NCBI RefSeq assembly: GCF_963675165.1
Contig: NC_087388.1
Location: 5,337,047 to 5,401,046, forward strand
Reading direction: 5' to 3'
From: Halichondria panicea
Taxonomy: Eukaryota > Porifera > Demospongiae > Suberitida > Halichondriidae
Length of the DNA: 64,000 nucleotides
The position numbers were made by a program, and so were the translations under genes. Positions 3,001 through 38,800 of the stretch are shown in pieces. Every line of letters starts with the position of its first letter. The first letter of the stretch is position 1. The notes under the pieces were generated by a model. The model ran no database searches. It was not told the origin of the DNA and saw only the letters and a list, made by a program, of their open reading frames with translations.

Positions 3001-6000
3001 GTGTGTGTTAGTGTGTAAACGTTTGACATAATTTTTGTGACAAGAGTTTACCTGAAGTTATTTCCATGATGCTGCTTAGTGTGTGGTTGACGCCATTCCC
3101 CGTCCATATCACCACGACAACGACAATGGAACCGTTGACCCCAGCAGAGGTGAGCTGCACACAGAATTGTCACTGCTTACAAGTATGCAATATACATGCA
3201 GGATGGAGCAAGCATAAGTTTAAAATGGCAGGCCAAGCTGGGGTCTATCCCGCAAAGCGCCTGAAAATTTTTTGACAGGAAACCACACCCCATAATTATG
3301 ACGTAACACATCGAAATTATACATCCACATGCATGTGTCTTTGTTTCACTAATAGATTTTTCAATATTAACGACCATTACCAGCTAGGAAACCATTATGC
3401 ATAATGGCGACCATTACTTACCTATAGTTGCAAAAAGTGGTCCGATTTTGCTGGACCCCTTGCTATGCTCGATTATGCTTATGATCAATTATGTAACTAA
3501 GAGCAAGTGCAAACTTAATTAACGGCGTTAATTTGAGGTTAAGTTAGTCTACAGCCTCGAGTCAATGCTGCTATGCTAATGTGCAGGTTCTCTCGCTTTT
3601 GCTCCTTTTTATTTTATTTTCTATTTTTGCCAAATTCCAAATTTAAAACTACTACCTTGTTTTGTTGAGGCTATCCATGGTACAAAGGAAATGCTATCGC
3701 AGCCAGGTAAGTAGACTCAGAAGACAGACACACAGACTGACCAACTACTATAACCCGTGGCGTGCCTCGGGTTAACTATAGGTGTGTACATGTGTATTGC
3801 AAGATCATATGGAAAGTCAATGTACGGCCTAACTAAAATGTAATTTAATTATACTACAAACATTTAAGCTGCCCCTACACTCATTGGAATCTGTTTACAA
3901 GTATGTACTGTATAGCGGGTAATTTTCAGTGGGAAAAACATTTATGGTTAAGCAATATTTAGTCACTTTGTTTTCGTGGTTGCTGCTTGCACTGCAGGTA
4001 AGGTAGGCAAGGTCGCTAGGTAAAATATTCGTGGTCAGATCGAGCTTCAATTAGGCCAATAAAATTATGCTAGCATAATTTTAAGACTAATATAGGTGGG
4101 TGGAGCATTGAGTATTATAATACATTATTATATTACAGCCTAATAGGTAAGCCTATTAGGCAATTTTTACCAAATAATGTTGGTAGAAAGTATTTATAGA
4201 AGCACTGAGCCGCATGAGTAATGCTAATAGTTGACCTTTACACTTCTAAGCACATTGACCACATGGTGGCTAGACTGGCTAGTAGTAGTGGCTACTGAGT
4301 ATATACGTATGGATATTATTATTATTGTATACACTCTAAAGTTTTGGAGCGAATAAAAATACCGAGAGGCGTATTAGCACAGCGGAATTTGCAACATTCA
4401 TGTATACATGTTAATCAGTCACGTAATTGTGTGCAAGTATATGTATTGTGACAAACAGTACAAGTGATCCTCTTCATTCCACTGGATAATTCAATCACTT
4501 AAGCTAGCCATCAATACTCACTTGTCCACTGCCCACTGTACACAGGATAGAGCTCTCATTCTCATACTGAGCTGTCAGACTAACTCCATTCACAACACAA
4601 TAGTACTCAAAGCCATCCGTCTAATGGACATGGAGGAACAATCCAGTATTACAATACACGTAGAACAGGCATGCAGCTGTATGTGAGCTAGATAAGTTTA
4701 ATAGTACATTGTGCATGAACACTTGTTGTACCAACTAATAATTATTAAACTCAAGCTTTATAGCTAACTACAGAGGTCATGTGACTTACGGGGGCTATGA
4801 GGTTCCTAGTGGTCAGTCGAAGGTCCTGGGCCACTCTTACTGGTTGAGTGTACCCATCAGAGGGGGGTGTGTCCAAAAGGGGGCACTCGGCAGTGAAGTT
4901 GTTGCCTCCAGACACCTGTACAGAGGATGTATAGAGTCACAGGTCACTATACAGGGCCGTAAGAACCAGGGGGGCTGGGGGGGAAACTGCCCCCCCCACT
5001 CTGAAAACTTGGAGGGCAGAGCCCCCCTGATTTTCAGACAGTGAAATGGGGTGGGGCACTCCTCTGCAGAGTTCAGCAGATCACAGTCCTGATATTATAA
5101 TTATTTAGTGCCTTTTAATCTAACCACATTGGTTAAATGCATGTGCATGGTTTGTTGCAACAACACTGTACAGTAACTAAAGTAAGTTAATCCACATGCA
5201 GCTGAAATTTATATAGCTAGAGCTCACTATGGCACAATATTCATTCTTCAGTACCTCAGCCTGCCCATGATGAAGAAAGTATAGGATCTTCTTCTTACGA
5301 AGCTCGATGAATCTCCAGCGTCTATTCTATATATACTTTATATACACAAGTTTTGCTAACTGACTTTGAAGCAGTTGCTCGTGACTTTGCTTCCACGTCG
5401 AATAAACTATTTTGCTATAGCTCTCACATGCAGATTATTTTATTTATGTATCTTTCTCCTGTTTATCTCTGAGAACATACAAAATGTAAAAAGTTCGCCT
5501 CTGGCGGGGCGGGAGGGGAAATTTCCCCCTCCTGGACCCACCCATGCATGCGTCACAGAGGATCTGTTCCTTTTTTCTGCCCCCCCCCACCTAAAAAATC
5601 TTATTACAGCCCTGCTATAAGCTCACCTGTAGGAAGTGAGATGCATTCCTGCAAGGAGCTAATGTTCCACTGCACTGCTTGTTGAGGTTACACCATCCAC
5701 ACGGACTGTTGAGCCCGAGGCAATCCTTACAGCTGTAGAATGGGAAAGAGGGCCAGTTTTTTAAACACCAAATAGCCTGTGAATTTGAAAAGTGGTGATA
5801 CCTTTTTCCTGCTGAGCAATTGTAGATGACGAGAGCTTGGTTGGTGATATCAAATGGCTCATTGAACAGAGAGCTCTGAAAGCCCAGGTTGATGGTTGCA
5901 GTCACTCCAGGATAGTCAAGTACCAGTCCTTCAATATCACAAATGAACACTGTTCCCGGGATGACCTCAACAGCTGGTACTATGATGGGTGAGAAACGTC

Positions 6001-8010
6001 CTTCACTGTCTGCCACATGACAGGAGATGTTCTCTCCAGGCAGGAGGTCAGGCAGGCCGGGGGAGGTCAGGGTAACATTGAACTGTGGGAGGTATATATA
6101 GGTATGTTATCATATACAACTGTATACATGCAAGCGCCTCACCTCTCTACCACGAATTGCTTGGTCGAGGACAAGTTGCATAGGATCCACTGTAGCAATA
6201 ACACAGTTGGTATTGTTATTTATCCATCTACTGGAGAGACCAGAGTTCTGACACTGCGTCTGACGAGAGCACTTGTTCTCCACCACACACCACCCACACA
6301 GCGGGTTGAGGTCATTGGTACAACTGGTACAGTCTATACGCTGGAAGCACTCCTCTATGGGTACTTGGAACACCTACAGTGTGGGGGGGGATTGTAATGG
6401 ATGGGAGACGGGACATACCTCAAAACAAGCAATAACTTACAGAGTCTGCAGTGACTGCTGTAATGTAGTTCAGTCCCTCCTGCCATGACAACTGATGTAT
6501 CTCAGAGTTCACTGACTGATCGTAGAACTGAACGAATGACACTACAGGGCTAAGAGAAACTTCCAACTGTGGAGAAAAACAGATAATTAGAATACACACT
6601 ATAGCTGACTCAGACACTTACTCCTATTATCGTCTGATCAATCGCCACAAACGCAAAGTAGAACTGCTCTATATTCACAGGTACGATGGCGGTGAGTATT
6701 GTTGGTATACTAAAAGGAATAGTGTCTGGGAAGAGAATACCGACGGGAGTGGGTGTGTCACATCTGTCATCAGCTACCTGGAGAATGAAGTGTGTGAGTT
6801 GGCAGTTATGTTAGAAGCAAGGGTATATAAAGAGAAGAGGGCATGCAACTACAATCTATCGTATTATAAATGGGCGGGGGCTTATATCTAAAGAATTATT
6901 GCACATGGGCTAAATATATAACATATCCTGATGACTCATCAATAATACGACGACGCATACACAGTATACATTGTGAGTTGCATGCCCTCTTCTCTTTATA
7001 CGCCCTTGTTAGAAGTATATAGCACAAACCTGAGGTGGGGTAGTGCAGTTTTCTGAGGAACCTGTTCTCCAAGCTAAACCAATTTCTTCACCAATAGTCC
7101 GTGACACAATACAAGTGTCATACTTAGTGTCCATAGCTTCATTGACGGCATTGACATTGACTAGACAAATAGGGTTTATAGTGCCAGGCGTACAAATGTA
7201 CACAGCTGCAATAGGTCCAGGTATTCCAATGAAGTTGTCCAGTAAAGACGCTGCACACACACGAGTCGCTTCAGTGATTGTTTGACCTTCGCAATTGAAA
7301 TCAACTTCATACAAAGCTGTCATTCCACAGGTACTTGGGCCTCCACAATCAGGCATGTTGCAAACACGTAATAGTCTTATAGCTCGTGCATCAGCAGGTT
7401 GGTAATCGACTACAACATAGTAGGCAAAGTTACCACTCACAAATCCACCATAGAATTGTCGTGCAAAGTCATCAACTCTAAAATTCAGTTCATTGAATGA
7501 GCCAGATGGATTATTATCAGATGACCTATTGAATCCCTCTCCGAATTGTTGCAGTACCATCCTGTGCTGCGTTCCGGCACCAGTCGATGCTCCAGTGTAG
7601 AAAGTGTCTCCTGACGTAAAGATAGCTGCTCCAAAGTCCTGATCTGCTGAAGCTATAGCATTACTGACACTCCTGATAGGACCATCACTGAGGTTGCTTG
7701 CATTGTAGACAGAGCAAGAGAGATCCTCTAAACACACCACCAACATCCCAGTAGAACTCAGGGCCAGTCCTCTAGTGATGACAGTAGCTCCTACATCAAC
7801 TCTTTCTTCTTGAATTAGCTGTGCATTCAGTCCATACAGGTTATTGCCTGTAGCAAGGAATGTTCTCCCAGTTGAGTCCACTTGTAGTCCTGGGGCATTG
7901 ATAGAGACATCAAAGCCAAAGGATAATGATTCAGAATAAGCTACTCCTTGCAGCAGAAAAAAAGCAAAGAGAACCACTAACAAGTAGCACAGCCACATTC
8001 TATATAGCAT
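1..8010 (-). CDS. Gene A: plexin-ectodomain receptor tyrosine kinase, 3' end outside window
   Basis: Single-pass cell-surface receptor kinase. Exons in transcript order: 8010-7030, 6777-6622, 6566-6441, 6373-6143, 6082-5802, 5732-5627, 4915-4790, 4620-4522, 3154-3052, 2998-2810, 2710-2311, 2263-2002, 1951-1730, 1675-1517, 1469-1240, 1183-1137, 1076-984, 930-847, 649-432, 109-1. All have GT/AG borders and matching phases. Exons 1-3 encode a signal peptide and a Sema propeller, exon 4 PSI1 (motif CGWCVVENKC), exon 6 PSI2 ([10 protein letters not shown]), exon 10 PSI3, exons 11-15 four IPT repeats, exon 15 the membrane helix. Exons 17-20 hold the kinase glycine loop GQGEFG, VAVK and HRDLAAR. The DFG exon, C-lobe and tail lie left of base 1. 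The start at 8010 (MLYRMW) precedes a hydrophobic leader; a second ATG at 7998 is equally possible. It is clearly more diverged from C and D than those are from each other. No disablement was seen in the visible exons. Confidence 0.88.
158..350. mobile_element. MITE with TATAGCGGGTAA-type inverted ends (copy in gene A intron 19)
   Basis: The left end reads TATAGCGGGTAAATTTGG and the right end ACAAATTTACCCGCTATACGG, an imperfect inverted repeat about 190 bp apart, with no coding capacity. Related copies lie at about 3908-4033 (partial), 14350-14525, 25339-25480 (right end lost), 37036-37220 and 50424-50630. Most sit in RTK introns or just 3' of RTK genes. Confidence 0.6.
4952..5614. mobile_element. 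Insertion element in gene A intron 6
   Basis: A 663-bp segment whose ends are inverted relatives: CAGGGCCGTAAGAA at the left, and TTATTACAGCCCTG at the right. It is flanked by the direct repeat CTATA (4947-4951 and 5615-5619). It contains G-rich and C-rich runs but no convincing protein. The right end is only about 12 bp from the donor side of exon 6. Confidence 0.55.
7030..8010 (-). other. Gene A exon 1: signal peptide and most of the Sema domain
   Basis: A 981-nt (327-codon) exon ending in phase 0 at a GT donor. A hydrophobic leader (WLCYLLVVLFAFFLL) is followed by Sema-like sequence with paired cysteines and the signature [18 protein letters not shown], which is shared word for word with gene C. 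Several surface segments differ in length and sequence from C and D, for example around 7600-7650 and 7440-7510. Those are the same segments in which C and D differ from each other. Confidence 0.8.
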
Positions 8011-15068: not shown

Positions 15069-18000
15069 CTACAGTAGAGGTAATGAAACATCAATCCAAG
15101 GAGTAGTTGATGGGAATCAAACAAAACATAGCGTATACATGTAGCATGTTGCTGAAAGTCCAAGGTTAAATATTATACATACATGGTCATTTTACAAAAA
15201 TAATAATACATTTTATAGCTATAGCTAGTGTTTCAATGTATGATGATTCAAATTTGTTGTTGAGCATACTAATCAATTCTTCATGACATGCCAAGAATTT
15301 GGCAATACAGCAATTTTCCAAGTACAAAGTGACACTACATGTACAACAATGAGTATCAACGTAGGGAACATAACAATGTAATGTTGTTCATGATGTTGTG
15401 ATTGACATAAGGCCACTCTCCCCTTCACTTGTTTTTGACCAATCCTAGCAATTTCAGTGGTGCAAGTTCACATCTTTTTTGTTCAGCAGGGGCGTAACTA
15501 GCAATGAGGCAGAGGAGGTCCTTGCCTCCTGTACTATTGAACTTCAAGTTTCCTGTGACTCACATCACTATATATATATAGCTTTTACTAGCTCTAGCTA
15601 GCTAACTTCTGGATAACCAGCCAACTATAGGTACATAGAATGAGCAGAAATGAGCTCTATCACTGTCTTGTTGATGAAGAAAAGGGAAGAAAAGCAAGTA
15701 AATAGCATTTTCATGCGCTTCTACGCAATAATTAGTGGTGTGGTTTCCAGTGAAACAATTTGCAGGGGCGCAAGCTCTAAATAGACCTACAACATGTGAC
15801 GATATATGCGAACTGGAGTCAGGAAGCAGTTGGTATCTATATAGGGTGAGAGTTTCAACAAATTATGTCTACACTTACTGAGCTGTTCCTCCTCTTGACT
15901 GGTGTCCACTAACACCATTCCGAGCTCAGTGTAGTCAGAGATGGATGCCAGTAGTTTCTCCACAATGGAGGACAGTTGTGAGAAGGTTGGCCTCTCCTCT
16001 GGATCCTCCCTCCAACACTTGCGCATCACCACAGAACTGGGTGAGTGAGTGGTAGGGGGAGATGTGCGGTCATGCAGTTGGGGGAAAACACAACATTTTC
16101 CTCAAAGTAACTCTTCTAATTTGTGTCTATGCTCCCGATGAACTCAATTTAATGCAAGGAAAGAGCTTGTTACAATACAGGAAAATTGCAGCTGACTCCA
16201 AGAATGCGCTTGCTTCAAACACAGTACTTGTAACTGCTACGAACTCAGAGTGAACACTTACATCTCGGTGGCACAGGCTGTGTTGAGAGGTTTCTCTAAT
16301 CTCCGCCCCTCCCTCAGCAACTGGATGAGGGACAGCGGGTCCACGGCAGGGTAGGGGGTCCGTCCTCCATTGAAGACCTCCCACACAGTCACACCATACG
16401 ACCACTGGGCACATGGACAAAAAGTGTTATTGCACTAAGATAATAACAGTATATAATATAAAAAAAATGCCTTCAGTTGAGTTAGGACCGTAGGAAAGTT
16501 TTAAAGTGGGGAGGCTAATACAAAATAGGGGGGTCCTCCAAGCAAGAAAAAATCTACTGAATGTTCTCTGAGATGAAACAAACCATACACACAAAAAATT
16601 CTTATACATCATCAATCATGATTGCATAAATACAGTGCCAACAATTGATGAGAGCACATGGACCAAAAGTGTTAATGCATGCACTAAGATAATGACAACA
16701 TTATGCATAACAATGCCTTCGGTTGAGTACATTGTATGTGATTACACTAAAATTTCACATAATTATTTCACTGAAAGTGAGGCAATTTGCTAGTCTAAGA
16801 GTATGTGCTAAAATAAATGTCTACCATGCATGTGTACTGACTGACCACATCAGTTTTCTCTGTGAAGATGGCATCGTTGAGACTCTCCAAGGCCATCCAT
16901 TTGTAGGGCAGCTTCACATTGGCTCGGTTGTTCTGTCTGAAGTAGCCGCTAGCATAGACGTCCTCAGCCAGACCAAAGTCTCCCACCCTGATACCCCCTC
17001 CCGAGTCCAACCTAAAGGAATAAACCACACTATTAAAATAATTGTGATACTGTTACGATATTGAACGAAATCTCTCAAAATTGTAGCAGTGCACTGTTAG
17101 CCCGGATGCCTCTTAGTAAATACTGTAAATTGTCAACTCACATGCAGTTTCTGGCTGCAAGGTCTCGATGAACAAATTTCTGTTCGGCCAAGTAGGCCAT
17201 TCCCAGTGCTATCTGATGGCACATCTTTAGTAGCAGTTTCCTCATTGACAGAATCTGTAGAGAATGGCATGGCAGCTGATCAAATGATTTGGTGGTACCG
17301 GGATCTATTATGTTAATGCACCCATCTCAGATCTCTGTTGAGCAACAGTTTCTCACACTAAAAGCCACAGATATAAGAGCTACCTTAACAGTAAAAACAT
17401 ATTTGTTACAGTAACATAAATGAAACGCATCTTTTGAAATTTAATGTAGAAATGACATACATTTTTGTTATAATGACGATGATTCTCATAATTATTATAA
17501 CATAAGTGTATTAACTCATTACGTAAGACACACCTGATCAACCTCACAGTCATCATCCAGCTCAAGGCTGCTCCTCTCTCTCTTGAGGTAGTCGAGGAGA
17601 CTCCCGTTGGCCATATATGGCATCACTATGGCAACACCTGGGCCAGCATCGAGACACACCCCAATCAGGGACATGACGTGAGGATGGTCAAAGTCCTGCA
17701 TCTTGTTCACCTCACACACCATGCTCTGAAAATCCGACAACGAGAACAGACCTGCAAGTAGACAAAATTAATGATGAACAGAGAATCATATATAACTAAT
17801 GCAATATTGTATTGCAGTTTACCAGAAATCTTATACAATCAGTGACTACAAATCTGCATTGTCTGAGAATCAAATCAATGAAAACCATGACCTCAATTAT
17901 TTGCGGTGAACAACATACATGTAATAAATAATATTACTTTTTAATGTTTTCACGGCCACCCCTTGTATAGGTACATTGTTCCAGTCTATCAGGACGCCCT

Positions 18001-21000
18001 TGTACACAATGCCAAATTCACCTGTAAAAATTATATTATAGTACACCATACATTAAGTGAAATACACATCTTTCTTTACCTTGTCCTATTGCAGTACTGG
18101 AGAGCTTCAATATTGAGGCTGGTATTTTGAATGAGTCTGGGATGGACTCAGCAATCTCATCGAGCTCTGATTCTGTAGGTCAGCAACAGAGACTATACAT
18201 ATACAGTCATGTAGATAAGAAAACTTACTAACAAGTGCAGTATTGCCATCCACTACCTCCTGAGTTTTTCTAACACTGTATAAAATAGAGCACTGATTCT
18301 GTATGTAAATACAAACCCTCGGTTAGGTTTAGTATAGTCTAGCTGGCAGGCATTTTTTCAGGGGTATCAATGAAGTAAAGGTATGAGATATATTCAAGAC
18401 TGCTGCTCTAACTTACTTTGCATGGACAGTCGAAAGCAACTAGTTAGAGATTTAGGCTCATTTTAAAAGTCAAAGGTGCAATCAATCAATTATCATTGAT
18501 CACGAACTTTGATCTTTGTTTTATCAGACTGCGTTTTATTACCGGAGACCTTCAAATCCTCTCTTAATGGATATCCAGTAATAATAAAGGTATGGTATAT
18601 AGGTGTAAAGATGCGATTCAAATGACCACACCTTTACAGTAGAGAAGTATTTACAGTACCAGAAGTAGGCAATGCTTTCGAGGTTCAAGTCAATCAGCAA
18701 AATTTATTACCTCGAAAATAACGATACAGTAATTGAACATGCAGTTAACAATGCCTACCTGGTAGCCACAAGCTGCACAATTTGTTCGTGCAAAGCAATG
18801 GACACTGACTTCCTCTGCCAGTTGCGATAGAAGCAGACGAATGTGATTATCATTACACACACGATCATCACAACCACCCCAAAAACACTCGGAATGATGA
18901 TTTCCAGAGGGACCATTGCCCCAGGAACCGCCACCACAGGATCTGTATAGTTCAGTCGCTGGTCCAATACGTGAGCAATGTTGATCCCAATGTTCACCTG
19001 AAGAGAGACAGTAAAATAGTTACAGTTTAATAGTCACTCACTTGTATGATGGCTGAGTTTACCCCTCCTGGGGGCTCTGAGGGAGCACTACAAATGACTT
19101 CGCTCCTTCTTGATTCACTGGGTGTTTCGGCACACTCCTCCCCTCCCACTGTCACTTGTATCTCACGGGTCTCCACTGAGTCGAGATTATCACCCTGCGT
19201 GGATATACTACACATGATAACAAATAGGGTCAGTGTACTAGCAATAAGACGTACCACAATGCGTATGAGGGTCGCTGTGCCACTGGTGACCTCTTGAGAA
19301 CCCTCCAGCCGGAAATTAGAGGGATTTGAAAAGACACTGATTGGGACGAGTGTTTGATTGGTGGGTGGGGCATCATCAAACAGCAGAGCATAGTCCAGTT
19401 GGGTCAGTGAGGTCGTCATTAGATTAGGAGTTGAGCATGTGATGGCGGTAGTGTTCACAACACTGCAGTTGCTCATCTATATATAGGAGGGGGAGAGTAC
19501 ATCATGTAATGCAGTTAGATTGTATATTATTGGAGAAAAGCCTCATTGGAAAATAAAAAGCTACAAAAATGGTCGTAGAACTATCTAACAGTGGTAATCC
19601 TGCAACACTGCAGTAGCTTCTCTGTAGGGGAGGGAGCATGCATCATGCAATAAGACATAAATTATAGCTACCAGAAGATCCCCCATTTTCTGGTAGACCT
19701 CCAACACAGGCCGTTGTACCACATCCAAGTACACTCCAGTGAAGGTCAGTGTGATACCTCCACTGGGAATGGTGTTGCTAGGAAACACGGCAGTTACATT
19801 GGGGTTGTTACGATAACTGAATACAACTCTTGGATTGCTGACTTTGGCAGCATCAATGGACACCACTACCGAAGCATTGGAGGTGAGGGGTCCTGCTGTG
19901 GTCCTGCAACGAATCTCATCAGATTGGATAGATCTGCATGGAAAGGTTTGAGTAATAATTATAGTTACTCAAAACAGTCACTCATAATTATTACATTATG
20001 TTGCAGACGTAGATTGACCCTTCATCCTCTAGAGAGACCCCAGTGTCGTTCTGATTACCCACATCCAGTGTCGTTCCCCTCACAGTCACTGTGGTTCCCC
20101 CGGCCATGGGTCCAAAGGTCGGAGTCATACTGTTGACAGTAGGATCTACCGCAGTGAAGGAGCCAGCGTTTACGATGGCCTCTCTAGAGCCAATAGTCAG
20201 AGAGAATTCTTTGGACCCTCCAGTTACAAAGTTGGTGGTTTCACAGACAAACTGACGCCCTGGTATGTAGCCAGTTTTAGTGGGAGTGCAGACCACATTT
20301 CCTAATGTAAGGATGGCGTTTTGAATGTGAACAAAGGTCACTCCGAGGTCAGTTCCCGTTACAGTGATTGTTGTACCACCTTCAACTGGTCCTGTGGGGT
20401 GAAGTATATAGTCATTCTGACATTGTCAGTATTAATTTTGCATCAGGCTCAACAATGATTACCAGACATTGGAGTGAATGAGTTGATAACAGGAGCAGGG
20501 CAACTGCCCCCTTCAGTAGTGAAACTATTGGAACACTCTTGCGTCACCTCACAGCTGTTCTCACACCACCCACATGTGAACTGTGACCCAATTCTGGACG
20601 CAAGGCACTCTGAACATCTACTAGCCATTTCACGACAATCATACAGTGTCACTGGGAGGGGGTATGACAGAGACTGTATAATTGTTTGTTCCAATGTGTA
20701 ATAGTTTGTGTATACGTACCATTGGTCTGTTGCATGATGCTGCTCAGTGGGTGGTTGATGTCATTCGCTGACCAGATTACCATGGCAATCACTGGGGAAC
20801 TGCTGATCCCAGCAAAAAGTGTGAACTGTACACAAAATCATAATACCTACTAAGTGTACGAATTGTAATGTGTAATGTGGCAATACTGTACAAACCACCT
20901 TTGTTGCAGATATGTGACATTTCAGTGACCATTCTTCAAGCAAGCTACCCCCCACACTGACAATTACCCTACGAAAGATCATTGTCAACACTTACTTGTC

Positions 21001-21583
21001 CACTGCCCACTGTACACAGGATGGAGCTCTCGTTCTCATACCGAGCTGTCAGACTAACTCCATTCACAACACAATAGTACTCAAAGCCATCCGTCTAATG
21101 AGAGGGAAGCCATGTAACAATCAGGTACAGAAATCATGCAACTAACGGGGGCGATGAGGTTCCTGGTGGTCAGTCGAAGGTCCTGGGCCACCCTTACTGG
21201 TTGAGTGTACCCACCAGAGGGGGGCGTGTCCAACAGAGGGCACTCGGCAGTGAAGTTATTGCCTCCAGACACCTGTACAGAGGATGTATAGCAATGGCGT
21301 ATATAGGAAGCAATTTCTCAATGGGGGGGCTCTAGTTTTTTGAATAAAAAAAGTACGGCTATCTACATTATAGTGCAGCTTGAAACTACTTAATATAGAG
21401 CCCCTGCATGGAGTCCCCCTTCCTACGCCATTGTATAGAGTCACAGCTAGGTCATCATAATCACTGACGGTTATCACCTGTAAGAAGTGAGATTCATTCC
21501 TGCAAGGAGCTGATGTTCCACTGCACTGCTTGTTGAGGTTACACCATCCACACAGACTGTTAAACCCAAGGCAGTCCTTACAG
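14640..21583 (-). CDS. Gene B: 5'-truncated plexin-ectodomain RTK with duplicated tail exons
   Basis: Exons in transcript order: 21583-21478, 21272-21147, 21094-20996, 20825-20720, 20651-20463, 20391-19995, 19933-19672, 19476-19255, 19194-19042, 18997-18759, 18269-18229, 18172-18080, 18021-17938, 17751-17534, 17254-17142, 17011-16846, 16404-16262, 16036-15879, 15068-14955, 14746-14640. They equal exons 6-23 of C plus two tail exons, and all phases close over 1044 codons. Present are PSI2, IPT2, PSI3, IPT3-6, a membrane helix and a full kinase domain ([36 protein letters not shown]). The Sema, PSI1 and IPT1 exons are absent upstream, and no in-frame ATG precedes exon 6. It is therefore either a truncated gene with an unseen start or a pseudogene whose remaining frame is intact. 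In the glycine-loop exon the last split codon gives Ser where A, C and D have Gly. Confidence 0.75.
21292..21433. mobile_element. Small MITE in gene B, between exons 6 and 7
   Basis: A 142-bp element with ends CAATGGCGTA and TACGCCATTG, flanked by TATAG on both sides (21287-21291, 21434-21438). Gene A has a different element in the homologous intron and C has none, so this insertion is specific to B. Confidence 0.7.
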
Positions 21584-22842
21584 CTATAGAATGAGAAAGA
21601 AAGCAAAATGAAGTAGGTATATATACGCACGCATGAAAAGCCTTGTGCAGAGTTTGTCTTTAAGTATGGCCGGGAGGTAGAAAGAGTAGACTTGCTAGAG
21701 ATCGAGAATGAGATATAGATCTATAAAATGTTTTTAAAGAATAGCAAAACGCTTGGCCCTAGTGTCATTGCTGGCTTCGTCCATGTGAGACTCTTAAGTT
21801 TTAGTAGCTCAAACTAGTATAGGGCAGTACCTAGCTTCTATAATGCAAAAGAAGAAAAAAAAGATTTTGGACTTTTATAAAGTACCCACACAAATTTTGC
21901 GTGACATTCCTGAGCATGACATACATACAAAAGGTTTTCTGATATACAATGCAGTATTAGTTGCCTCACGCTAAGGCGCTCGGTAATTAACCAAAAGTAG
22001 CCACACCAATGCAATTCCGCATTCCTAAAGCATGACACGTACACAACATGCATATATATAGTAGAATCTCGATTATCCGGCCCTCTCCATTATCCGAAAC
22101 TTCGATTATCCGGCTTGGCAATTTTCTTTTAGAAAATGGGTGTGTCCCTAAAATGCGCATGCGCATTACAGCTATTACTATGGAGACAGGCCTGTTTACC
22201 TTCTGTGCATGCGCATGTATTATCGTGTATCAATAAATAAGCAACTGTTGCACTAGCTGTTAATCTACCTCCGGTATAACCAGATAATTATAACGGAGTC
22301 AAATTGAACGAAAATAAAAACGATTCTAGCATCCCAGATGACACTCGAATGTATTGTTGAGCGTTGTCTAGTGACCGGTCTGTGTCTTTCGCTCAGCCTG
22401 CTATCATCTGCAAATTAAATAAGCAAATTATTCATGTAAACCAATATTTATTTTATTCCCAAAGTCGTGGGTGAAGCCTTCTATATATAAAGCATGCAAC
22501 AACCTAATGGTAAAGAGGTATATTATATATATAGTCAGCACTTTCTTGGAAAATCTACCCAATCAGGTTACCACAACATTGCATTGCAATTGCAAAACCT
22601 AGCTAGCAGTATACAGTCAGTGTATCTCAAGGGCATGCTCTTGCATGATTAGTGTCGTAGGATTGGCGGTACAAACAGTTGGCTGTACATTGTACATAGG
22701 TGTGTTTGTAGCATTAGCAGTGTTTCACATACTATAAATAGTATAGTGTTGATAGTTGCATTAGCGTCACAACTAGGGGTTGGTATTTTGCTGGCATAAC
22801 TTTAAGAGCATACATTTTTTTTTCGAGAAGACTGCTTACTGA

Positions 22843-28379: not shown

Positions 28380-29762
28380 ATGTTATTGTCACTCTTATTT
28401 TTGTTTTTGCTGCAAAGAGCAGCTCATTCTCAATATTTCTCCTATGATTATGCTGAAACTGATACTCTCCCAGGACTGCAAGTGGACTCCACTGGGAGAA
28501 CATTCCTTGCTGCAGACAACTATCTGTATAGACTGAATGCTCAGCTAATACAAGAGGAGAGAGTTGATCTAGGAGATACTGTCATTACCGAAGGACTTTC
28601 CCTGAGCTCTACTGGGATGTTGGTGGTGTGTTTAAATGATCTCTCTTGCTCTGTCTACAATGCAAGTAACCTCATTGCTGGTCCTATCAGGAGTGTCAGT
28701 AATGCTATAGGAAGTTTGGATTTTGGAGTAGCTATCATTGCGTCAAGAGACACTTTCTACACTGGAGAAGACAATTATGGGATGGTACTGAAACAATTCG
28801 GAGAAGGTTTCAATAGATCGTCTGACAACAATCCATCAGGCGAACTCAATGAATTTGTTTTGGAAGATAGTGACTTTTCACGACAATTCTATGCATATGG
28901 TGGTTTTGTGAGTGGTGGATTTGCCTATTACGTTGTCGTCGACTTTCAACCTGTTAGTGCACTAGCTATAAGACTGTTACGTGTTTGCAACATGCCTGAT
29001 TGTGGAGGCCCAAGTACCTGTGGAGTGACTGCTTTGTATGAACTGGGAATCAATTGTGGCTTTCAAACGATCACTGAAGATACTTGTTTATGTGCAGTGT
29101 CACTAGCAGAGGACTTCAGTGGGATATCTGGACCCACTGCTGTTATAAATCTTTGCTACGGTGGTACTAACTCTATTTGTGTGGTCAATATCACTGCTGT
29201 CAATGAAGCTATGGACGCTAAATATGACTCTTGTATTGTGTCACGGACTGTTGGAGAAAAAGTTGGCTTACCATGGAGAACAGGCTCAGATAACTGCGAT
29301 ACTCTGCCTCAGCCTCAGGTTTGTATTGCCTATACTTGCATACTCCTATAACATAGAAATCACATAATATATTTTCCAGGAAACAAGGAACAGATGTGAC
29401 ACACCCAGTCCAGTCGGCCTTCTTATCCTAAATGGTGGTATTGACATAATAGCACCAGTTTGTATCAACTTTGGAAAGAGTTTTATCGCCATAGCTTCAG
29501 TAGCTGTGAAAGTGGAGCATTTTTCCTTTGTGTTTGTGGCAACTAATGAGCCCATTATAAGAGGAGTAAGTGCAGTTCTGTTGAGTCAGCTATATATTGT
29601 GTATAATCATGGTATTGTTTGTCATTGTCACAGTACGATGTCAGTGGTACATCGACTCTGGGCCCCGATAGTGCATTCTACAATCAGCAATTGGCCTCTA
29701 ATGTATTACATTTGTCATGGCACGAGGGTCTAAACTACATCACAGCAGCCTCTTGGAACTCT
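28380..29762 (+). other. Gene C exons 1-3: signal peptide and Sema propeller
   Basis: The leader is [17 protein letters not shown]. Sema features include [13 protein letters not shown] near the end of exon 1, the FAYYVVVD strand and a late-blade strand FSFVFVAT in exon 2. About 23 substitutions and two compensating in-frame indels separate exon 1 from gene D, with only about two silent differences. Confidence 0.85.
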
Positions 29763-32700
29763 GTGAGTTAAAGTTTGCATGTATGTCCTACCCTATCCAT
29801 CTGCCTCCCCTCTGTCCTCTGCTAGGTGTTCCAAATACCGATTGAAGAGTGCTTCCAGCGTTTAGACTGTACTAGTTGTACCAGTGACCTCAACCCGCTG
29901 TGTGGGTGGTGTGTGGTGGAGAAAAAGTGCTCTCGTCAGACGCAGTGTCAGAACTCCAGTATTTCTAGTAGATGGACACAGGACAATGCCAACTGTTTTA
30001 CTGCTGCTACTGTGGAGCCTATGCAACTTGTGCTTGACCCTGAGATTCTTGCCACTGAGGTAAGACTTGTGTGTATATGTGTCTGATATCATATAAACGA
30101 CCCCCTCCCCCCCAGCTCACAGTGACCCTGACCTCTCCCGGCCTGCCTAACCTCCTTCCTGGAGAGAGCTTCTACTGTCATCTGGCGGACAGTGAAGGAC
30201 GTTTCCCACCCATCATAGTACCAGCTGTTGAGGTCACCCCAGGAACAGTGTTCAGTTGTGATATTGAAGGACTGGTACCTGACTACCCTGGAGTGACTGC
30301 AACCATCAACCTGGGCTTTCAAAACTCTCTGTTCAATGAGCCATTTGATATCACCAACCAAGCGCTTACCATCTACAGGTGCTCAGCAGGAGAAAGGTAT
30401 CCACATACATGCATGTATATTAAATACAAATTAGTTTTCTAGTATAATTATAAGCTCATAAATACAACTCCCACAAATAAATGATTGAAGATTATCACAA
30501 TATAAATTGTAGTTTGTCTGCAATGTGTAGCCATGCAGGCTGAGTTTTTGCTTTATAATTATCGGATGGAAAAATAACCTGGGACAATGCCAACCGTTTC
30601 ACAAATAACCTACACAGGCGTGTCTATATAGCGATATAGTAAACTGTGTAGTAAAACAAATGCATGTACACTAAAAACATTAAAAAGTGCGACAACTTAA
30701 TTAGTGTGCTCAACACACTTAAGAACATTGTCTATATAGAGAAAATACGATAATTATGTCTTTATGACACCGTTGTATACAGCTGTAAGAATTGTCTTGG
30801 GATAAATAATCCGTGTCGATGGTGTAACCTCAACAAGCAATGCAGTGGAACATCAGCTCCTTGCAAGAATGTATCTCACTTCCTACAGGTGAGCTCAGTG
30901 ACGTGATGATGACCTGTATATACGTCCCTCTGTACAGGTGTTTGCAGGCAACGACTTCACTGCCGAGTGCCCCTTGTTGGACACGCCCCCCTCTGGTGGG
31001 TACACTCAACCAGTAAGGGTGGCCCAGGACCTTCGACTGACCACCAGGAACCTCATCTCCCCTGTAAGTAACATGACCTGTATATCTGATTGTTCCATAG
31101 TTTCCCTCACCATATAGACAGATGGCTTTGAGTACTATTGTGTTGTGAATGGAGTTAGTCTGACAGCTCAGTATGAGAACGAGAGCTCCATCCTGTGTAC
31201 AGTGGGCAGTGGACAAGTGAGTATTTAGTGATTGTTTAGCTTATGTGACTGTGGAATGAAGAGGATCACTTGTACTGTTTGTCACATTAGATACTTAATA
31301 AGTTTGTGATGGTAGCTTATGTGATTGAATTATCCAGTGGAATGAAGAGGATCACTTGTACTGTTATAGTTACAATAAACACTTGCATGTATTACGTGCC
31401 TGATTAACATGTACATGAATGTTCCAAGTTCCGCTGTACATGGTTAATGCGCCTCGGCATGTTTTACTTCGCTCCAGAATGTTAGAGTGTATAGAATAGG
31501 ACATTAAATTAATGCATAGTTTTTTTAACGAAAGTGTTCCGCTATAGTAATATTCAAGAAATAAATAATATTAGAGCAAGAGTAATACAGTGTTATGGAA
31601 GAGGAGCTTAATGTAACAAGTCTCATTAAAATTAATGGCTGCTGCATGTTTTTGGTAAGAGAACAACAGCTAGAAAGAGCTACTAGTTTTTGTTGCATCG
31701 TTAAACAGTTACAGCTGGAACAGACACACATGTGCACACACACAGTCAGTATTCTTCGTGTGGCTACGCAGATTTTATAATGCACACAGTCATGTACTTG
31801 TAAACACATCCTGATTAAAATTAATAATAGCTACATACTGACGATTTGGTTTACAGCTCACACTTTCCCCTGGTGTTGGAAGTTTCCCTGTGGTTGTTAT
31901 GGTAACCTGGACGGGGAATGACATCAACCACACACTGAGCAACACCATGCAACAACTTTCAGGTATCATTATATGTATCTGTCAACCATAATTCTTTGGA
32001 TAATTTGGATAGACGCTTCCAGGTAGTCTAGACAATCTACTAGTTCACCCCGCACCCACACATATAGTGACGTTGTATGATTGTCGTGACTTGGCCAGTG
32101 GATATCTGGAATGTATTGCAGTCAGAATGGGGTCAGAGTTTGCATGTGGGTGGTGTGGGGGTAGTTGTGAGGTGATGCAAGAGTGCTCCAATACTTTCAT
32201 TACTGAGGGGGACAATCCTCCTGCCCCTGTCATCAACTCATTCACTCCAATGTCAGGTAAGAATGCAGTGAACGTATATACCTGCGTACATACAGTATGT
32301 GATTGTCATAATTATGTAGTGTAGTCAAAGATCTATCATACTTGCATTACTAAGCCTTTTTAACTTTAGTAGTAAGTATATGCATGCTTAACTCACTATT
32401 GATTACATACAAAATTTGTACATACTTAATCCTCAGGACCAGTTGAGGGTGGTACAGCAATCACTTTGAGGGGTACTGACTTCGGAAGAACTTTTGTTGA
32501 CGTTCAGAACTCCATCCTTACATTAGGAGGCGTGGCTTGCATTCCCCTCATCACTGGTTATATACCATGGCAACAGTTTGTCTGTGAGACTGCACATTTT
32601 TTAACAGAAGGGTCAAAAGACTTCTCTCTGACTATTGACTCTAGAGTAGCCGTTGTAATTGGTGGCTCCTTCACTGCGATAGATCCTACTGTCAGCAGTG

Positions 32701-35700
32701 TGACTCCCACCTTTGGACCCATGGCCGGGGGAACTAAAGTGGTTGTGAGGGGTACTGCACTGAACGTGGGTAACCAGGAGGACACTAGAGTCTTTCTAGA
32801 GGTCAGCGAGTCATACTACGTCTGCAAAATATTGTGAGTGATACTCTATAATTATAACAAAGCTCAAACTTTTTTCTGCAGATCTATCGAGTCTCAAGTG
32901 ATTTGTTGCAGTACCTCAGCAGCAAACCTCACCTCTACTGCTTTGGTGGTAGTGTCCATTGATGCTGCCAGAGTCAGCAATCCAGGAATGGTCTTCAGTT
33001 ATCGTAACAACCCTAATGTGACTGCTGTGTTTCCTAGCAACACCATTCCCAGTGGAGGCATCACACTGACCTTTACTGGACTGGACTTGGACGTAGTACA
33101 GCAGCATGTGTTGGAGGTATACCAGCCAATGGGGGATCCTCTGGTAAGCTGCCGTATATATATTCGATGGTCAAACTTTTTGATTGACATTTTTCAGAGA
33201 ACGATGCCCCACGTACTTGTGTCGAATATGTTGTGTCGTTATTGTGTCCCTCCCCTACAGAGGAGCAACTGCAGTGTTGTGGACAATACCACCATCACAT
33301 GCTTGACTCCTAGTCTGACAACAACCTCACTCACCCCATTGGACTATGCCCTATGGTTTGATGATGTCCCACTCATTACACAAGCACACTTCCTTATCAG
33401 CGTCCAACCAGATCCTTCTCAATTTAGACTAGATAGTTCTCAAGAGGTCACCAGTGGCACAGAGACGCTCATACGCATTGTGGTATGTATGATTAGCTAG
33501 TACACTGACTCTACTGTTATCGTGTGTGTATATCCATGCAGGGTGATAATGTTGACTCAGTAGAGACCAGTGAGATAAGAGTGATCGTGGGAGGCGAGGA
33601 GTGTACTACGACACCTAGTAGTTTAAGAGGAAACGAAATCATCTGTATCGCCCCCTTGGAGCTCCCGGGAGGGGAAAACTCAGCCATCATTCAAGTGAGT
33701 GACTATTAAACTGCATATTAGCTAAAATTATACTGTCCCTTCAGGTGAACGTTGGGAGCAACATCTCTCAAGTATTGGACCAGCAGCTGACTTACACAAG
33801 TCCTGTGACTGCTGCAGTTCCACTGGAGATCATCATCCCGAGTGTTTTGGGGGTTATTGTGATGATTGTGTGTGTAATGCTAATCATTTTTGTTCGTTTC
33901 TATCTGAACTCTCGGAAGAAGATCGTGTCAATTGCTGTGCATGAACAGATGATGGAAATCGTGGCTAATACGTAATAATTAGTGTGTAGTCCGTAGCTAG
34001 TCCGTATATAGCTGTTCAATTATCTTATTCATTTACAGGAGAACACGGGAGGACATATTTCCTATGGATGGCAATACAGCACTCATTAGTAAGTTAAGTT
34101 CTATATTATAGTTTGCACTGATAATTATATTCACTGACCCACAGAATCAGAACTTGTTGAGATTGCTGAGTCAATCCCAGACTCAATCAAAATTCCAGCC
34201 TCCATATTGAAGCTCTCCAGTACTGCAATTGGACAAGGTAAAGAAACATTAAAATAATTTACGGAGAGTGTAACTATATAATTATAATTATACAGGTGAA
34301 TTTGGCGTTGTGTACAAGGGAGTCCTGACAGACTGGAACAATGTACCTATTCAAGGGGTGGCCGTGAAGACACTGAAAGGTACGATTTCATATAGCTTGC
34401 TTAATTAATATACTGTTTTCAGCGACTAACTTTATGTTCTATACATGCATGCATGCATGGTTGTCATTCATGAATTTATTCTTTTCACTATTCTTATAAC
34501 AGATTACAATTTCTGCAATTATAACCTCAGTTCTTCTGCAGGTCTGTTCTCATTGTCGGATGTTCAGAGCATGGTGTGTGAGGTGAACAAGATGCAGGAC
34601 TTTGACCATCCTCACGTCATGTCCCTGATTGGGGTGTGTCTCGATGCTGGCCCCGGCATTGCCATAGTGATGCCATATATGGCAAACGGGAGTGTTATTG
34701 GATATCTCAAGAGAGAAAGGAGCAGCCTTGAGTTGGATGATGACTGTGAGATTGATCAGGTGTGTATATAGCTTAAAATCATGGCAGTATCTAGCCTTGT
34801 CTGCATGGGTGTCTCTGGAGAGATGTGAGTGCAATCAAGGGGCTGATTAGTGTGTGTATAGTTATAAGGGAGGACAAAGGTGCACACTATATATACACTC
34901 CCATCTTCTACCGTAGTCAGGATTATTTACTTCCAATTTACTCTTAAACGATTAATTTAACCAGCCTATAGTATTCAATTTGAGGATTATGGGGATATAG
35001 TCTCGTTATAGGAGAAGGTGGTGAGCTTTTTCAGAACACCAAAAATTGTGTGAGGAAGCTCTTGACATTTTCTACAGGTTCTGGAAGTGAGGAAACTGCT
35101 ACTAAAGATGTGCCATCAGATAGCACTGGGAATGGCCTACTTGGCCGAGCAGAACTTTGTCCATCGCGACCTTGCGGCCAGAAACTGCATGTGAGTGAAC
35201 TATCGACGACTGCATGTGTGTACAGAAAAACAAGAATTATAATTTGAAGACATATTAACTAGATCTAGCTGTTTAAGACATGAAAAGATTCCTTGTTTCT
35301 CATCAGCCACTTCCTCAATTTGCATGAGGGGAAGAGGCCAGAGGAGGATCGTCTCTGTCAAAAGGTCTTCCGAAGGACTTTAAAATTCCACTCAACTAGC
35401 TCCACGTGAATTGGACATACTATAAAGAAAGAGTAGATGAGTGGAATTCAATTTAAGTCCTCTGGAAGCAGCTATAATTGACCCTGACGATCCTCCATTG
35501 CTACGTATATCTATATAGTGTGATGTTCATCTTGTACATTCCTATAGGCTGGACTCGGGAGGAGGTATCAGGGTGGGGGACTTTGGTCTGGCTGAGGACG
35601 TCTATACTAGCGGCTACTTCAGACAGAACGACCGAGCGAATGTGAAGCTGCCCTACAAATGGATGGCCTTGGAGAGTCTCAACGATGCCATCTTCACAGA

Positions 35701-37359
35701 GAAAACTGATGTGGTCAGTCATGCAGTACAGCATACATGCATGGTATTAGCTTAAGGCAATAATTGTTGTTATAATTATGTTGTCCATGTGCCCAGTGGT
35801 CGTATGGTGTGACTATGTGGGAAGTCTTCAATGGAGGAAAGACCCCCTACCCTGCCGTGGACCCACACTCCCTCATCCAGCTGCTGGGAGAGGGGCGGAG
35901 ACTAGAAAAACCTCTCAATGCAGCCTGTGCCATTGAGATGTGAGTGTATACCTGAGTTCAGTAAAAATTTTCAGGGTGGTATACATAATATTATATTGTA
36001 TGGCAGTTTCAATGAGCTTTGTGTTCAAGCGAGCCCCTGTAAACAGGTCTTGTAATCCGGGTAGACTGAGGGGAGCTATAGGCCGCTGCATGTATGCCAT
36101 TTGATTATTACTCCGTGCATTCGCAACACGCAGCAGAGTTAGAGTGATTTGTGTGTGTGTGGACACAAAAATGAGCTGTTTGAGCAAACTAGACACTTTC
36201 ATGGACTGCTTAAGCCTTATATAAAACTGCTAATGAGACAGTAGTTGAAAAATAATACGCTATAGTTACAGTTGAATTGTAAGTGATCTTCGAAGACAAA
36301 AAAAAACACTAATCGTTGCTATAGATTCAGGATCATTTCCCGTAATCATAACGTTATAGTAAGGTCATTCGGTAAAAAATGATTGTATCTGTTTTGTTGC
36401 TGCATGGGGTGAATATGTTCTATATGAGAATCTTATACATGCAGTTCTAAGCTGATGCGTCAGTGTTGGAGGGAGGATCCAGAGGAGAGGCCAACCTTCT
36501 CACAACTGTCCTCCATTGTGGAGAGGCTACTGACATCCATTGCTGGCTACACTGAGCTCTGTATGGTGCTACTGAACCCAATTCAAGAAGCGGAGCAGCT
36601 CAGTAAGTGTATGAAAATTATAGATATATACCGGTTAGTAAGCCGGCGCATGCGCCTATAGCGAAAAGAGCAGGCCTCTATGCGCCTATTATCTGGATAT
36701 GCTTATAGAGATTAACCACGCCCATGACGTTTCAATAAAGCAAATCTCCATTAGATATAGCTCGATCGTTTGTCTCCAAGAGGTCTATAGTTATATCTGA
36801 CAGCAGTAACACAGCTACCGGTAGTTAACATCTATAAAGAAGTGTGGAGACCAGTTGTTGGGCAGATAACTTTGCAGAAAACCATGCGCCTTCTATCCAG
36901 GCTCTTAGTCTGCTAACCAGGCGCCTATTAGTTGATGTGCGCTTATCAACAAGATTATAAGGTAATAGTTAAAAATACTGTACCTTAGTATGGCTGCCCA
37001 CAAAGATCATCACAATTTTTGAATTTACTTAGTGTACCGTATAGCGGGTAATTTTCGGGGGACAAAATATTCGTATTGAGACATTTCGTGGGTAATATTT
37101 TCGTGGCTGGAGTTTGCAGTGCAGGTAAAGGTAAGCAATGTCGCTTCATTCGTAGGTAAAATATTCGTGGTTCAGTGTTAAACCATATTTTGCCCCACGG
37201 AAATTATCCTCTATACGATATAATTATGCTAAAACATGCATGTTGTTATAATTATATAGTTTAATCATTCTTACTGCCCATGCAGAATGTGACAATTTAC
37301 CCACACCCACTGAAGACGCTCATCGCTATGTCGATGGTCCACTAGATCACCCTCTATAG
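28380..37359 (+). CDS. Gene C: complete plexin-ectodomain receptor tyrosine kinase, 24 exons, 1584 aa
   Basis: Exons: 28380-29318, 29380-29565, 29634-29762, 29826-30059, 30116-30396, 30783-30888, 30938-31063, 31118-31216, 31857-31962, 32068-32256, 32437-32833, 32882-33143, 33261-33482, 33542-33694, 33745-33971, 34039-34088, 34145-34237, 34296-34379, 34542-34759, 35078-35190, 35548-35713, 35797-35939, 36445-36602, 37286-37359. All borders are GT/AG and the total is 4755 nt. Residues about 1-18 are a signal peptide, 20-418 Sema, 419-470 PSI1, 497-587 IPT1, 588-625 PSI2, 626-736 IPT2, 737-785 PSI3, 799-1165 four IPT repeats, 1170-1193 the membrane helix, 1260-1555 a tyrosine kinase resembling MET, and 1561-1584 a short tail. 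No plexin GAP domain is present. The start is the first ATG and opens a hydrophobic leader. An extracellular ligand, probably semaphorin-like, is inferred only from the Sema fold. Confidence 0.92.
29826..33971 (+). other. Gene C exons 4-15: alternating PSI and IPT modules, then membrane helix
   Basis: PSI1 is exon 4 ([10 protein letters not shown]). Exon 5 is IPT1. PSI2 spans the exon 5/6 junction (YRCSAGESCKNC), where the usual CGWC is CRWC in C only. Exons 7-9 form IPT2, with the plexin-like run RLTTRNL then [12 protein letters not shown]3 is exon 10 ([18 protein letters not shown]). Exons 11-15 hold four IPT repeats, each marked by a P-x-x-GG-T-x-(I/V/L)-x-x-x-G pattern. The helix is [20 protein letters not shown] in exon 15, followed by basic residues SRKK. 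Confidence 0.82.
32008..32062 (+). repeat. LINE-derived fragment forming the 3' end of gene C intron 9
   Basis: Sequence AGACGCTTCCAGGTAGTCTA through ACTAGTTCACCCCGCACCC matches, in sense orientation, the segment immediately 3' of the LINE reverse-transcriptase remnant at 38140-38210 on the minus strand. The fragment runs to within a few bases of the exon 10 acceptor. Gene D has it (about 44568-44615); genes A and B do not. Confidence 0.6.
34145..36602 (+). other. Gene C exons 17-23: tyrosine kinase domain
   Basis: All catalytic landmarks are present: glycine loop GQGEFG (1264-1269), Lys1291 in VAVK, Glu1308 in the C-helix, HRDLAARN with Asp1398 and Asn1403, and DFG with Asp1416. Activation-loop tyrosines are Tyr1424 and Tyr1428 (DVYTSGYF). 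PYKWMALES matches RTKs, and with WSYGV and [10 protein letters not shown] marks a complete C-lobe. The HRDLAARN form excludes a serine/threonine kinase. Confidence 0.93.
37036..37220. mobile_element. GCGGGTAA-type MITE in gene C intron 23
   Basis: The left end is CCGTATAGCGGGTAATTTTC and the right end an imperfect complement ending CTCTATACGATA. The same insertion exists in gene D at 50424-50630, so it predates the C/D duplication. Confidence 0.65.
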
Positions 37360-38129: not shown

Positions 38130-38800
38130 ATTTGTGTGTGTGGGTGCGGGGTGAACTAGTAGATTGTCTATAGACTATCTGGAAGCGTCTATCCACTTTC
38201 AGTTTGTTCCAACTCGCTATTGTGTGGGAAGAATGAGTTTTTTAAATAGTTAGTTCTTGTGAAGGGTTTTAAGAGCTGCATGGGGTTTCTATAATGGTTT
38301 GGGTAAGCAGAATTTGCCAGTTCAGGTTTGGTTGGGTACTTAACCTTGTCAAATAAAATATTGAATAGAGGCATAGCTTTGCCATTTTTCTTCTGCTAGC
38401 CATGGTAGGTATGTCACAGTATATATAGTCAAGTAGCTCATTGTAATTAAAGCGCCATGATTTGGTGCAGACTCTGAGGGCAAACTTTTGGACATCCTCT
38501 ATTGCCTTGATGTCTTTGGCAAGAAAAGGATCCCACACAGGACTGGCATACTCCATGTGTGGTCGAATCAGTAATTTATGTAGTTTGCTGAGTGTAAAGG
38601 GGCTTTGAGAATTTGTAAAAGTTCCTGTAGAGTATATAATCCTACTAACTTGCGACTTTTATTGCAAATTATATTTGTGTGATAGGACCATGTGAGATCA
38701 GATGAGAAGTTTAATGATTGCGGAAAGTTTGAATTTTTGAGCAAGCTGTTCACCATCGACGTAGCAAGCTAAAAATTGGTTGAACAATTAAGAAGGATCT
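38130..38800 (-). mobile_element. LINE (non-LTR retrotransposon) reverse-transcriptase C-terminal remnant
   Basis: On the minus strand three frames in sequence give segments typical of the RT C-terminus of CR1/jockey-like LINEs: FSSDLTWSYHTNIICNKSRK, then MEYASPVWDPFLAKDIKAIE with FALRVCTKSWRFNYNELLDY, then LLKPFTRTNYLKNSFFP. The two frame changes show it is dead. The sequence past its 3' end (38200 down to 38130) is the piece also present in introns 9 of C and D. Confidence 0.75.

Follow-up and report, generated by a model that had tools for sequence, protein, structure and literature searches.

The receptor tyrosine kinases (RTKs) MET and RON carry an ectodomain in which a Sema domain is followed by one PSI module and four IPT modules. 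Here we describe gene C, an RTK gene with a plexin-type ectodomain found in a 64,000-nucleotide stretch of the genome of the sponge Halichondria panicea (contig NC_087388.1, positions 5,337,047 to 5,401,046; hereafter the window), and the gene family to which it belongs. The architecture itself is already known from the receptors that Junqueira Alves et al. (2019) named Met-LP, in which a full plexin ectodomain is combined with a kinase and which were reported from Lophotrochozoa and Echinodermata, with examples from an annelid, a sea hare and a starfish (PMC6374515). Met-LPs are called polyphyletic in that paper, with two independent origins inferred within Bilateria, and none is mentioned for the sponge, comb jelly, placozoan and sea anemone that it surveyed; the sponge Amphimedon is credited there with two full plexins and with four that have short intracellular parts lacking conserved domains. 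Met is also among the RTK orthologues stated for sponges and ctenophores in PMC6485061. The initial annotation of the window had recognised the ectodomain order as that of plexins, which largely holds, and had overlooked the Met-LP receptors.

Like a Met-LP, the predicted protein comprises a plexin-type ectodomain, a transmembrane (TM) helix and a tyrosine kinase, without a GAP domain; it differs in its occurrence in a sponge, in being one of a family with at least 29 PSI-plus-kinase loci on a single chromosome, and in belonging to an ectodomain clade that includes a local plexin locus. With MET and RON it shares a Sema-PSI-IPT ectodomain and a MET/TAM-type kinase, but it has three PSI modules on a plexin-type stalk, and its kinase is as near to AXL and Mer as to MET. 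The ectodomain order is that of plexins (IPT1 by position only), with high identity and similar exon lengths to a local plexin locus, plexin2, whereas the plexin GAP domain is replaced by a tyrosine kinase. The Amphimedon proteins Plexin-A1 to -A4 are likewise sponge plexin-type ectodomains present in several copies and lacking a GAP domain, and group with the GAP-bearing Plexin-A5, but no kinase is reported for them in PMC6374515. No paper on sponge plexin-ectodomain kinases was found among the literature matches listed, as judged by title and start of abstract, in a search whose coverage lay outside subscription journals and preprints. Nor was a sponge member, an array on this scale or a local plexin resembling a donor found in the literature so searched.

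We consider it likely that these genes encode RTKs of Met-LP architecture in a sponge, derived from the union of a local ectodomain of plexin type with a kinase from a local MET/AXL-type lineage, the product of which then multiplied. Such a local join is probably a better account than one in which MET lost modules from a receptor of this form, because the ectodomain clade includes the local plexin2 and because the same kinase clade occurs beside SRCR, FN3/Sushi and IgGFc-binding/Sushi exons. As the ectodomain clade is common to the sponge receptors and the local plexin locus, they probably represent a further fusion, independent of those behind the bilaterian Met-LPs.

Domain architecture of the predicted receptor

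The gene C model was assembled manually using translations in three frames and then checked by script, which gave 4800 nt including the terminal stop, GT-AG borders at all 23 introns and no internal stop. The same exons were found again by a spliced aligner supplied with the C protein, which is a check of consistency and not an independent one. The features of gene C and the positions of the other copies in the window are listed in Table 1.

Table 1 Position of gene C, its predicted modules and its paralogs (positions are those of the window)
Feature	Positions	Strand	Evidence
Gene C, 24-exon plexin-ectodomain RTK, 1599 aa	28380..37359	+	spliced model
Gene C, exons 1-4 (part), signal-like hydrophobic start and divergent Sema, residues 1-425	28380..29846	+	phmmer, profile, Foldseek
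Gene C, PSI1, residues 427-475	29850..29996	+	Pfam PF01437
Gene C, segment at IPT1 position, residues 476-583	29997..30376	+	phmmer colinearity with plexin-A1; profiles negative
Gene C, PSI2 region, mostly exon 6	30377..30982	+	Pfam PSI 5.1e-5, scanned alone
Gene C, IPT2 region, exons 7-10	30983..32072	+	hhalign E 2.9e-6; Pfam TIG_2 weak, 0.028
Gene C, PSI3, exon 10	32073..32225	+	phmmer to plexin/MET PSI; Pfam weak, 0.26
Gene C, IPT3-IPT6, exons 10-15	32226..33786	+	Pfam TIG, 4 stretches
Gene C, single TM helix, exon 15	33808..33906	+	hydrophobic stretch then basic residues, read by eye
Gene C, tyrosine kinase, residues 1277-1546	34222..36514	+	Pfam 1.9e-79, motifs, PDB best Mer/MET/AXL
Gene D, second full copy, 24 exons, 1597 aa	41076..50739	+	spliced alignment, query C
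Gene A, third Sema-bearing copy, 3' end lost at window edge	2..7983	-	spliced alignment
Gene B, copy of C residues 590-1580 (PSI2 onward), TM and kinase present	15859..21585	-	spliced alignment

Residues 1-1192 of C were compared with PDB sequences using phmmer and matched Plexin-A1 (E = 1.3e-52, C residues 264-1069), Plexin-A2 (1.9e-51) and Plexin-A4 (3.6e-46), in colinear alignments that began within Sema or at PSI1, took in PSI2 and PSI3 and extended to the IPT modules stacked behind them. The corresponding match to MET (7.3e-32) began only at the third PSI module. The order Sema-PSI-IPT-PSI-IPT-PSI followed by four IPT modules, as proposed in the initial annotation, was borne out by phmmer, Pfam and hhalign for the Sema domain, the three PSI modules and IPT2 to IPT6, but no profile match was obtained for IPT1. 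With Pfam by itself, gene C returned TIG in four stretches and PSI in two, short of the three PSI and six IPT modules that had been counted. The plexin-like linker motifs quoted earlier (TWTGNDIN and VTLYDCRD) are present in the spliced C protein.

The three PSI modules differ in how they were recognised: PSI1 was found by Pfam, PSI2 rose above the Pfam cut-off when scanned alone (5.1e-5), and PSI3 was assigned by alignment and by a passing Pfam match in one of four relatives scanned, namely plexin2 (3.4e-5), with genes B (1.5e-4) and A (6.6e-4) just under the cut-off, C itself at 0.26, and nothing found by Pfam in the fourth relative (L009). Among the IPT modules, four are the TIG stretches found by Pfam (IPT5 and IPT6 with 2.6e-5 and 4.3e-6 when the segments of gene C were scanned singly), while IPT2 was recognised with hhalign, by which the family was aligned to its human plexin counterpart (probability 88, E 2.9e-6; three controls below probability 3). 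The segment between PSI1 and PSI2 is a putative IPT1, assigned by its position and the phmmer alignment only.

No Pfam match to Sema was found in C or in any of the six members scanned. A profile built from the Sema region of the same six members retrieved eight PDB sequences at E ≤ 0.01, all of them plexins (best 7.1e-5). Structure prediction for the Sema exon, using three sequences from the window, gave a model of low confidence (pLDDT 42, pTM 0.40), for which Foldseek ranked plexin-B1, a designed Pizza propeller, MET and plexin-A2 first to fourth and other propellers lower. The Foldseek result lends weak support to a Sema fold.

A predicted TM helix, read by eye, separates ectodomain and kinase in all 12 aligned RTK rows. 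The kinase domain of gene C was matched by Pfam PK_Tyr_Ser-Thr with 1.9e-79 and retains the glycine loop, the VAVK lysine, HRDLAARN and DFG as read in the spliced protein, motifs whose roles in protein kinases are well established. Plexin_cytopl (PF08337) was absent from gene C and from the window, its only matches in the genome lying on contig C12 at 6.48 Mb and 6.73 Mb, and the earlier description of one helix and a motif-complete tyrosine kinase without a GAP domain was thus upheld.

A search of the PDB with the single kinase sequence ranked Mer (222.5 bits) before MET (212.9), AXL (211.5), RET (207.2) and RON (205.9), and a profile of five members ranked AXL (237.5) before MET (234.7), Mer (231.7), RON (219.2), TYRO3 (215.1), RET (210.4) and FGFR1 (209.7), so that AXL, MET and Mer stood about 20 bits above RET and FGFR1 in the latter. 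A tandem EGFR chain tops both lists by summing two domains (367 bits in the profile list). By these sequence scores the kinase is of MET/TAM type, as near to AXL and Mer as to MET. A specific assignment to MET over AXL or Mer was considered and dropped on these rankings.

Origin of the ectodomain and the kinase

The genome searched was a 131 Mb assembly, in which the window sits on C12, a contig of 6.76 Mb. The two loci with a plexin GAP domain are both on C12, each at least about 1.1 Mb away from the window. At plexin1 (6482501 onward), for which the model is rough outside the PSI and IPT exons, human plexin-A2 scored 525, compared with 407 for plexin2 and 310 for C. At plexin2 the GAP exon (6726265-6726699) has a plexin-type ectodomain upstream on the same strand, with exon lengths similar to those of C and an identity to C of 49-83% by segment (57-83% over the segments from Sema to IPT2). 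No kinase was seen at the plexin2 locus among the matches listed.

Trees were constructed from the region PSI1 to IPT5 of 12 RTK ectodomains, plexin2, plexin1 and human plexins, with and without MET. All 12 RTK ectodomains formed one clade with plexin2 (support 100/99; 100/100 without MET), apart from the human plexins and plexin1, and a clade of plexin1 with plexin2 was rejected (approximately unbiased test, p-AU 0.0003). The placement of MET and of plexin1 was not firm, both being on long branches. In one copy (L005), the IPT1 segment is only 35% identical to C, and the model is probably poor there.

In the kinase tree, in which the human members were MET, Mer and EGFR only, five other kinase loci of the genome (two on contig C1 and one each on C5, C6 and C11) fell into one clade with the plexin-type kinases, separate from these three (98/96). 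Three of these kinases (C1, C5 and C6) are 68-70% identical to that of gene C, and five internal kinase exons have the same lengths as in gene C (84, 218, 113, 166 and 143 nt) at all five loci. Pfam scans of open reading frames (ORFs) upstream on the same strand identified SRCR at the C5 locus (L028), FN3 and Sushi at the C6 locus (L020), and IgGFc_binding and Sushi at a C1 locus (L025), which was the only one scanned of those on C1 and C11; another (L027) looked similar by eye. Counting the plexin type, four ectodomain types thus adjoin one kinase lineage, by position. A label of 'Calx' for the C1 and C11 ectodomains was dropped, as Pfam returned no Calx-beta in the L025 segments scanned. 

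In these trees of sequences from this genome and from human, all 12 ectodomains group with the local plexin2, and the kinases group with others of the genome that lie next to unrelated ectodomain exons. This favours the first of two origins proposed in the initial annotation, in which a plexin ectodomain became attached to a kinase within this lineage. The second, in which these genes retain an ancestral condition and MET has shed modules, receives no support, but the position of MET was not firm. The kinase is MET/TAM-like and not specifically close to MET.

Several observations weigh against a local join as the source of these genes. The Sema domain is strongly divergent, and the segment at the IPT1 position was negative by Pfam in all three members scanned, with hhalign to it no better than to the reversed sequence. 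The apparent join of ectodomain and kinase in one gene was read from genomic DNA alone, and the open frames of the paralogs are partly built in, as the aligner favours open, GT-AG-joined, C-like models. On the donor side, a run of 5000 N splits the plexin2 ectodomain from the GAP exons (L018/L019, C12:6726265-6737156), and for this reason the two are only likely to be one gene. Further, plexin2 was drawn beside L001, inside the RTKs (95/92; 90/91 without MET), although a clade of the RTKs without plexin2 is also compatible with the data (p-AU 0.165). On the kinase side, the plexin-type kinases group together at 49/65 only, and the upstream ectodomain exons of L028, L020 and L025 are linked to their kinases by position, not by spliced models.

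The foremost alternative is that a Met-LP was already present in the first animals and was kept by sponges, lophotrochozoans and echinoderms, with MET having lost modules from it. The same architecture in three distant lineages (PMC6374515), a MET/TAM-like kinase and the Met orthologues stated for sponges in PMC6485061 would all agree with such an ancestry. We nevertheless hold it to be unlikely, as the ectodomains resemble a plexin locus of this genome far more than they do the human plexins or MET compared, the kinases resemble those found here beside other ectodomain exons far more than they do human MET, Mer or EGFR, and the authors of PMC6374515 inferred two independent origins within Bilateria.

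The local join would have brought a plexin-type ectodomain, borne on exons, to a kinase gene from a local MET/AXL-type lineage of RTKs that had been shuffled repeatedly. Local duplication would then have multiplied the fusion. The survey in PMC6374515 places the joining of plexin ectodomain and kinase within Bilateria. If the present reading is true, a large sponge family whose own genome holds both a likely plexin donor and a kinase lineage occurring beside other ectodomains would mean that the join is easy and recurrent, and its steps would be readable from one genome.

A clustered family of receptor genes

The listings of PSI and kinase matches in the genome are lower bounds. Among the matches listed, 30 of 42 PSI matches have a kinase exon match on the same strand 3.7-9.1 kb downstream, which makes chance implausible as the source of the pairing. 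The paired matches correspond to at least 29 distinct kinase loci, every one of which lies within the stretch of C12 from 4.55 to 5.58 Mb, with some on either strand. Eleven of the 12 unpaired PSI matches listed lie outside this stretch and one (5144153) inside it.

Twelve Sema-bearing copies were modelled, namely C, D, A and nine fetched loci, the other 17 paired loci not being included. Ten of these are stop-free across the part covered, among them gene D over all its exons and gene A across C residues 2-1417, and the other two (L005 and L006) are each interrupted by two in-frame stops. The models of A and L004 end near residue 1420 and that of L002 at 1571; copies not cut have 23-25 exons. 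Gene B is also stop-free in its spliced alignment to C, and no Sema or PSI1 match was found in the 5.4 kb searched upstream of it. A further copy (L013) has one in-frame stop, and in four copies from contigs C2, C4 and C5 the alignment starts only near residue 648, within 10 kb pieces that may be cut. Gene B, L009, L010, L013 and L014 match only from PSI2 or IPT2 on, and may be truncated receptors, receptors with another N-terminus or pieces cut on fetching.

Within the array, the pairs C12:5290204/5323217 and 5463939/5527901 and the kinases at 5458180, 5494171 and 5521813 show equal match scores and near-equal spacings, and these sets of copies therefore suggest recent duplication.

Selection on the Sema domain and the kinase

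Ratios of nonsynonymous to synonymous substitution rates (dN/dS) were calculated for the 55 pairs of 11 copies, L005 being excluded. Mean values were 0.16 for the kinase, 0.34-0.46 for the segments from PSI1 to the juxtamembrane region, 0.60 for Sema exon 1 and 0.74 for Sema exons 2-3. By these estimates the Sema domain changes faster than the kinase. Values above 1 were seen in 4/55 (exon 1) and 5/55 (exons 2-3) of the Sema pairs, and in the comparison of C with D, a single pair picked because it is the finding, the Sema values were 1.49 and 3.14, and Sema was enriched in replacement changes compared with the remainder (p ~2e-4). Because most pairs lie below 1, positive selection on Sema is at most suggested by these ratios. 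A fast Sema domain over a conserved kinase hints at a diversified recognition.

The same data bear on the possibility that the plexin-ectodomain exons and the kinase exons are separate genes or alternative products, which have the appearance of one gene only. This would accord with a gene read from genomic DNA, with the copies that lack a Sema or PSI1 match (gene B, and those from C2, C4 and C5 in their possibly cut pieces), and with the PSI match inside the array that has no kinase match within 12 kb among the matches listed. It is very unlikely, in our view, given the frame-compatible GT-AG junctions that link ectodomain, TM helix and kinase in the hand annotation of C, the recurrence of the pairing among the PSI matches listed, the TM helix between both parts in every RTK row, and mean dN/dS below 1 in both parts. 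That degenerate copies left by local duplication make up most of the array, as the in-frame stops in L005, L006 and L013, the several seemingly short N-termini and the modelling of 12 of 29 paired loci might be taken to mean, is very improbable with 10 of the 12 modelled Sema-bearing copies open and a kinase dN/dS as low as that found here.

Possible function

If the local fusion operates as a receptor, its Sema propeller would bind a ligand, either a semaphorin or a protein replacing it, the PSI/IPT stalk would pair two receptors, and the paired kinases would then transphosphorylate at the tyrosine of the activation loop and at tyrosines of the tail. A plexin-type input, which normally ends in a Ras/Rap GAP, would in this way end in phosphotyrosine signalling, and the copies would differ in what is recognised with one output common to all. 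Candidate ligand genes in the genome comprise one strong Sema match (1.2e-14) and three weak ones (2e-4). The family would then couple input of plexin type to an output in phosphotyrosine, in an animal that has no neurons.

In H. panicea, a plexin-group receptor gene and a Sema-domain gene are up 6 h after bacterial lipopolysaccharide according to PMC8242945, a response that fits an immune role and is no test of it. It is conceivable, if doubtful, that the array constitutes a diversified recognition system of this sponge, in which dozens of clustered receptors would present fast-changing Sema faces over one conserved kinase and individuals would differ, for recognition of self and non-self or of microbes. 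The Amphimedon Plexin-A1 to -A4 would then be unrecognised members, and the array would form part of a wider RTK lineage in which the kinase has also acquired SRCR, Sushi/FN3 and IgGFc-binding ectodomains.

Other observations

An ORF in the window on the reverse strand (38269-38658) resembles what we take to be the C-terminal part of the reverse transcriptase of a non-LTR retrotransposon.

Elsewhere in the genome, 14 short cathepsin-like exon pieces were noted, of which five have Ser in place of the active-site Cys, in the motif CG(S/A)SYAF, five have Cys, and four have no motif. The Ser exons (L031, L032, L033, L034 and L039, on C2, C6 and C13) are like those of silicatein, a protein of siliceous sponges. 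One of them, encoding 37 residues, had silicatein alpha as its best match in the PDB (2.7e-12), compared with 5.5e-10 for cathepsin L1. These exons point to a siliceous sponge as the source of the genome. Four intronless cathepsin loci (L021-L024), which were uninformative on this point, have ordinary Cys active sites.

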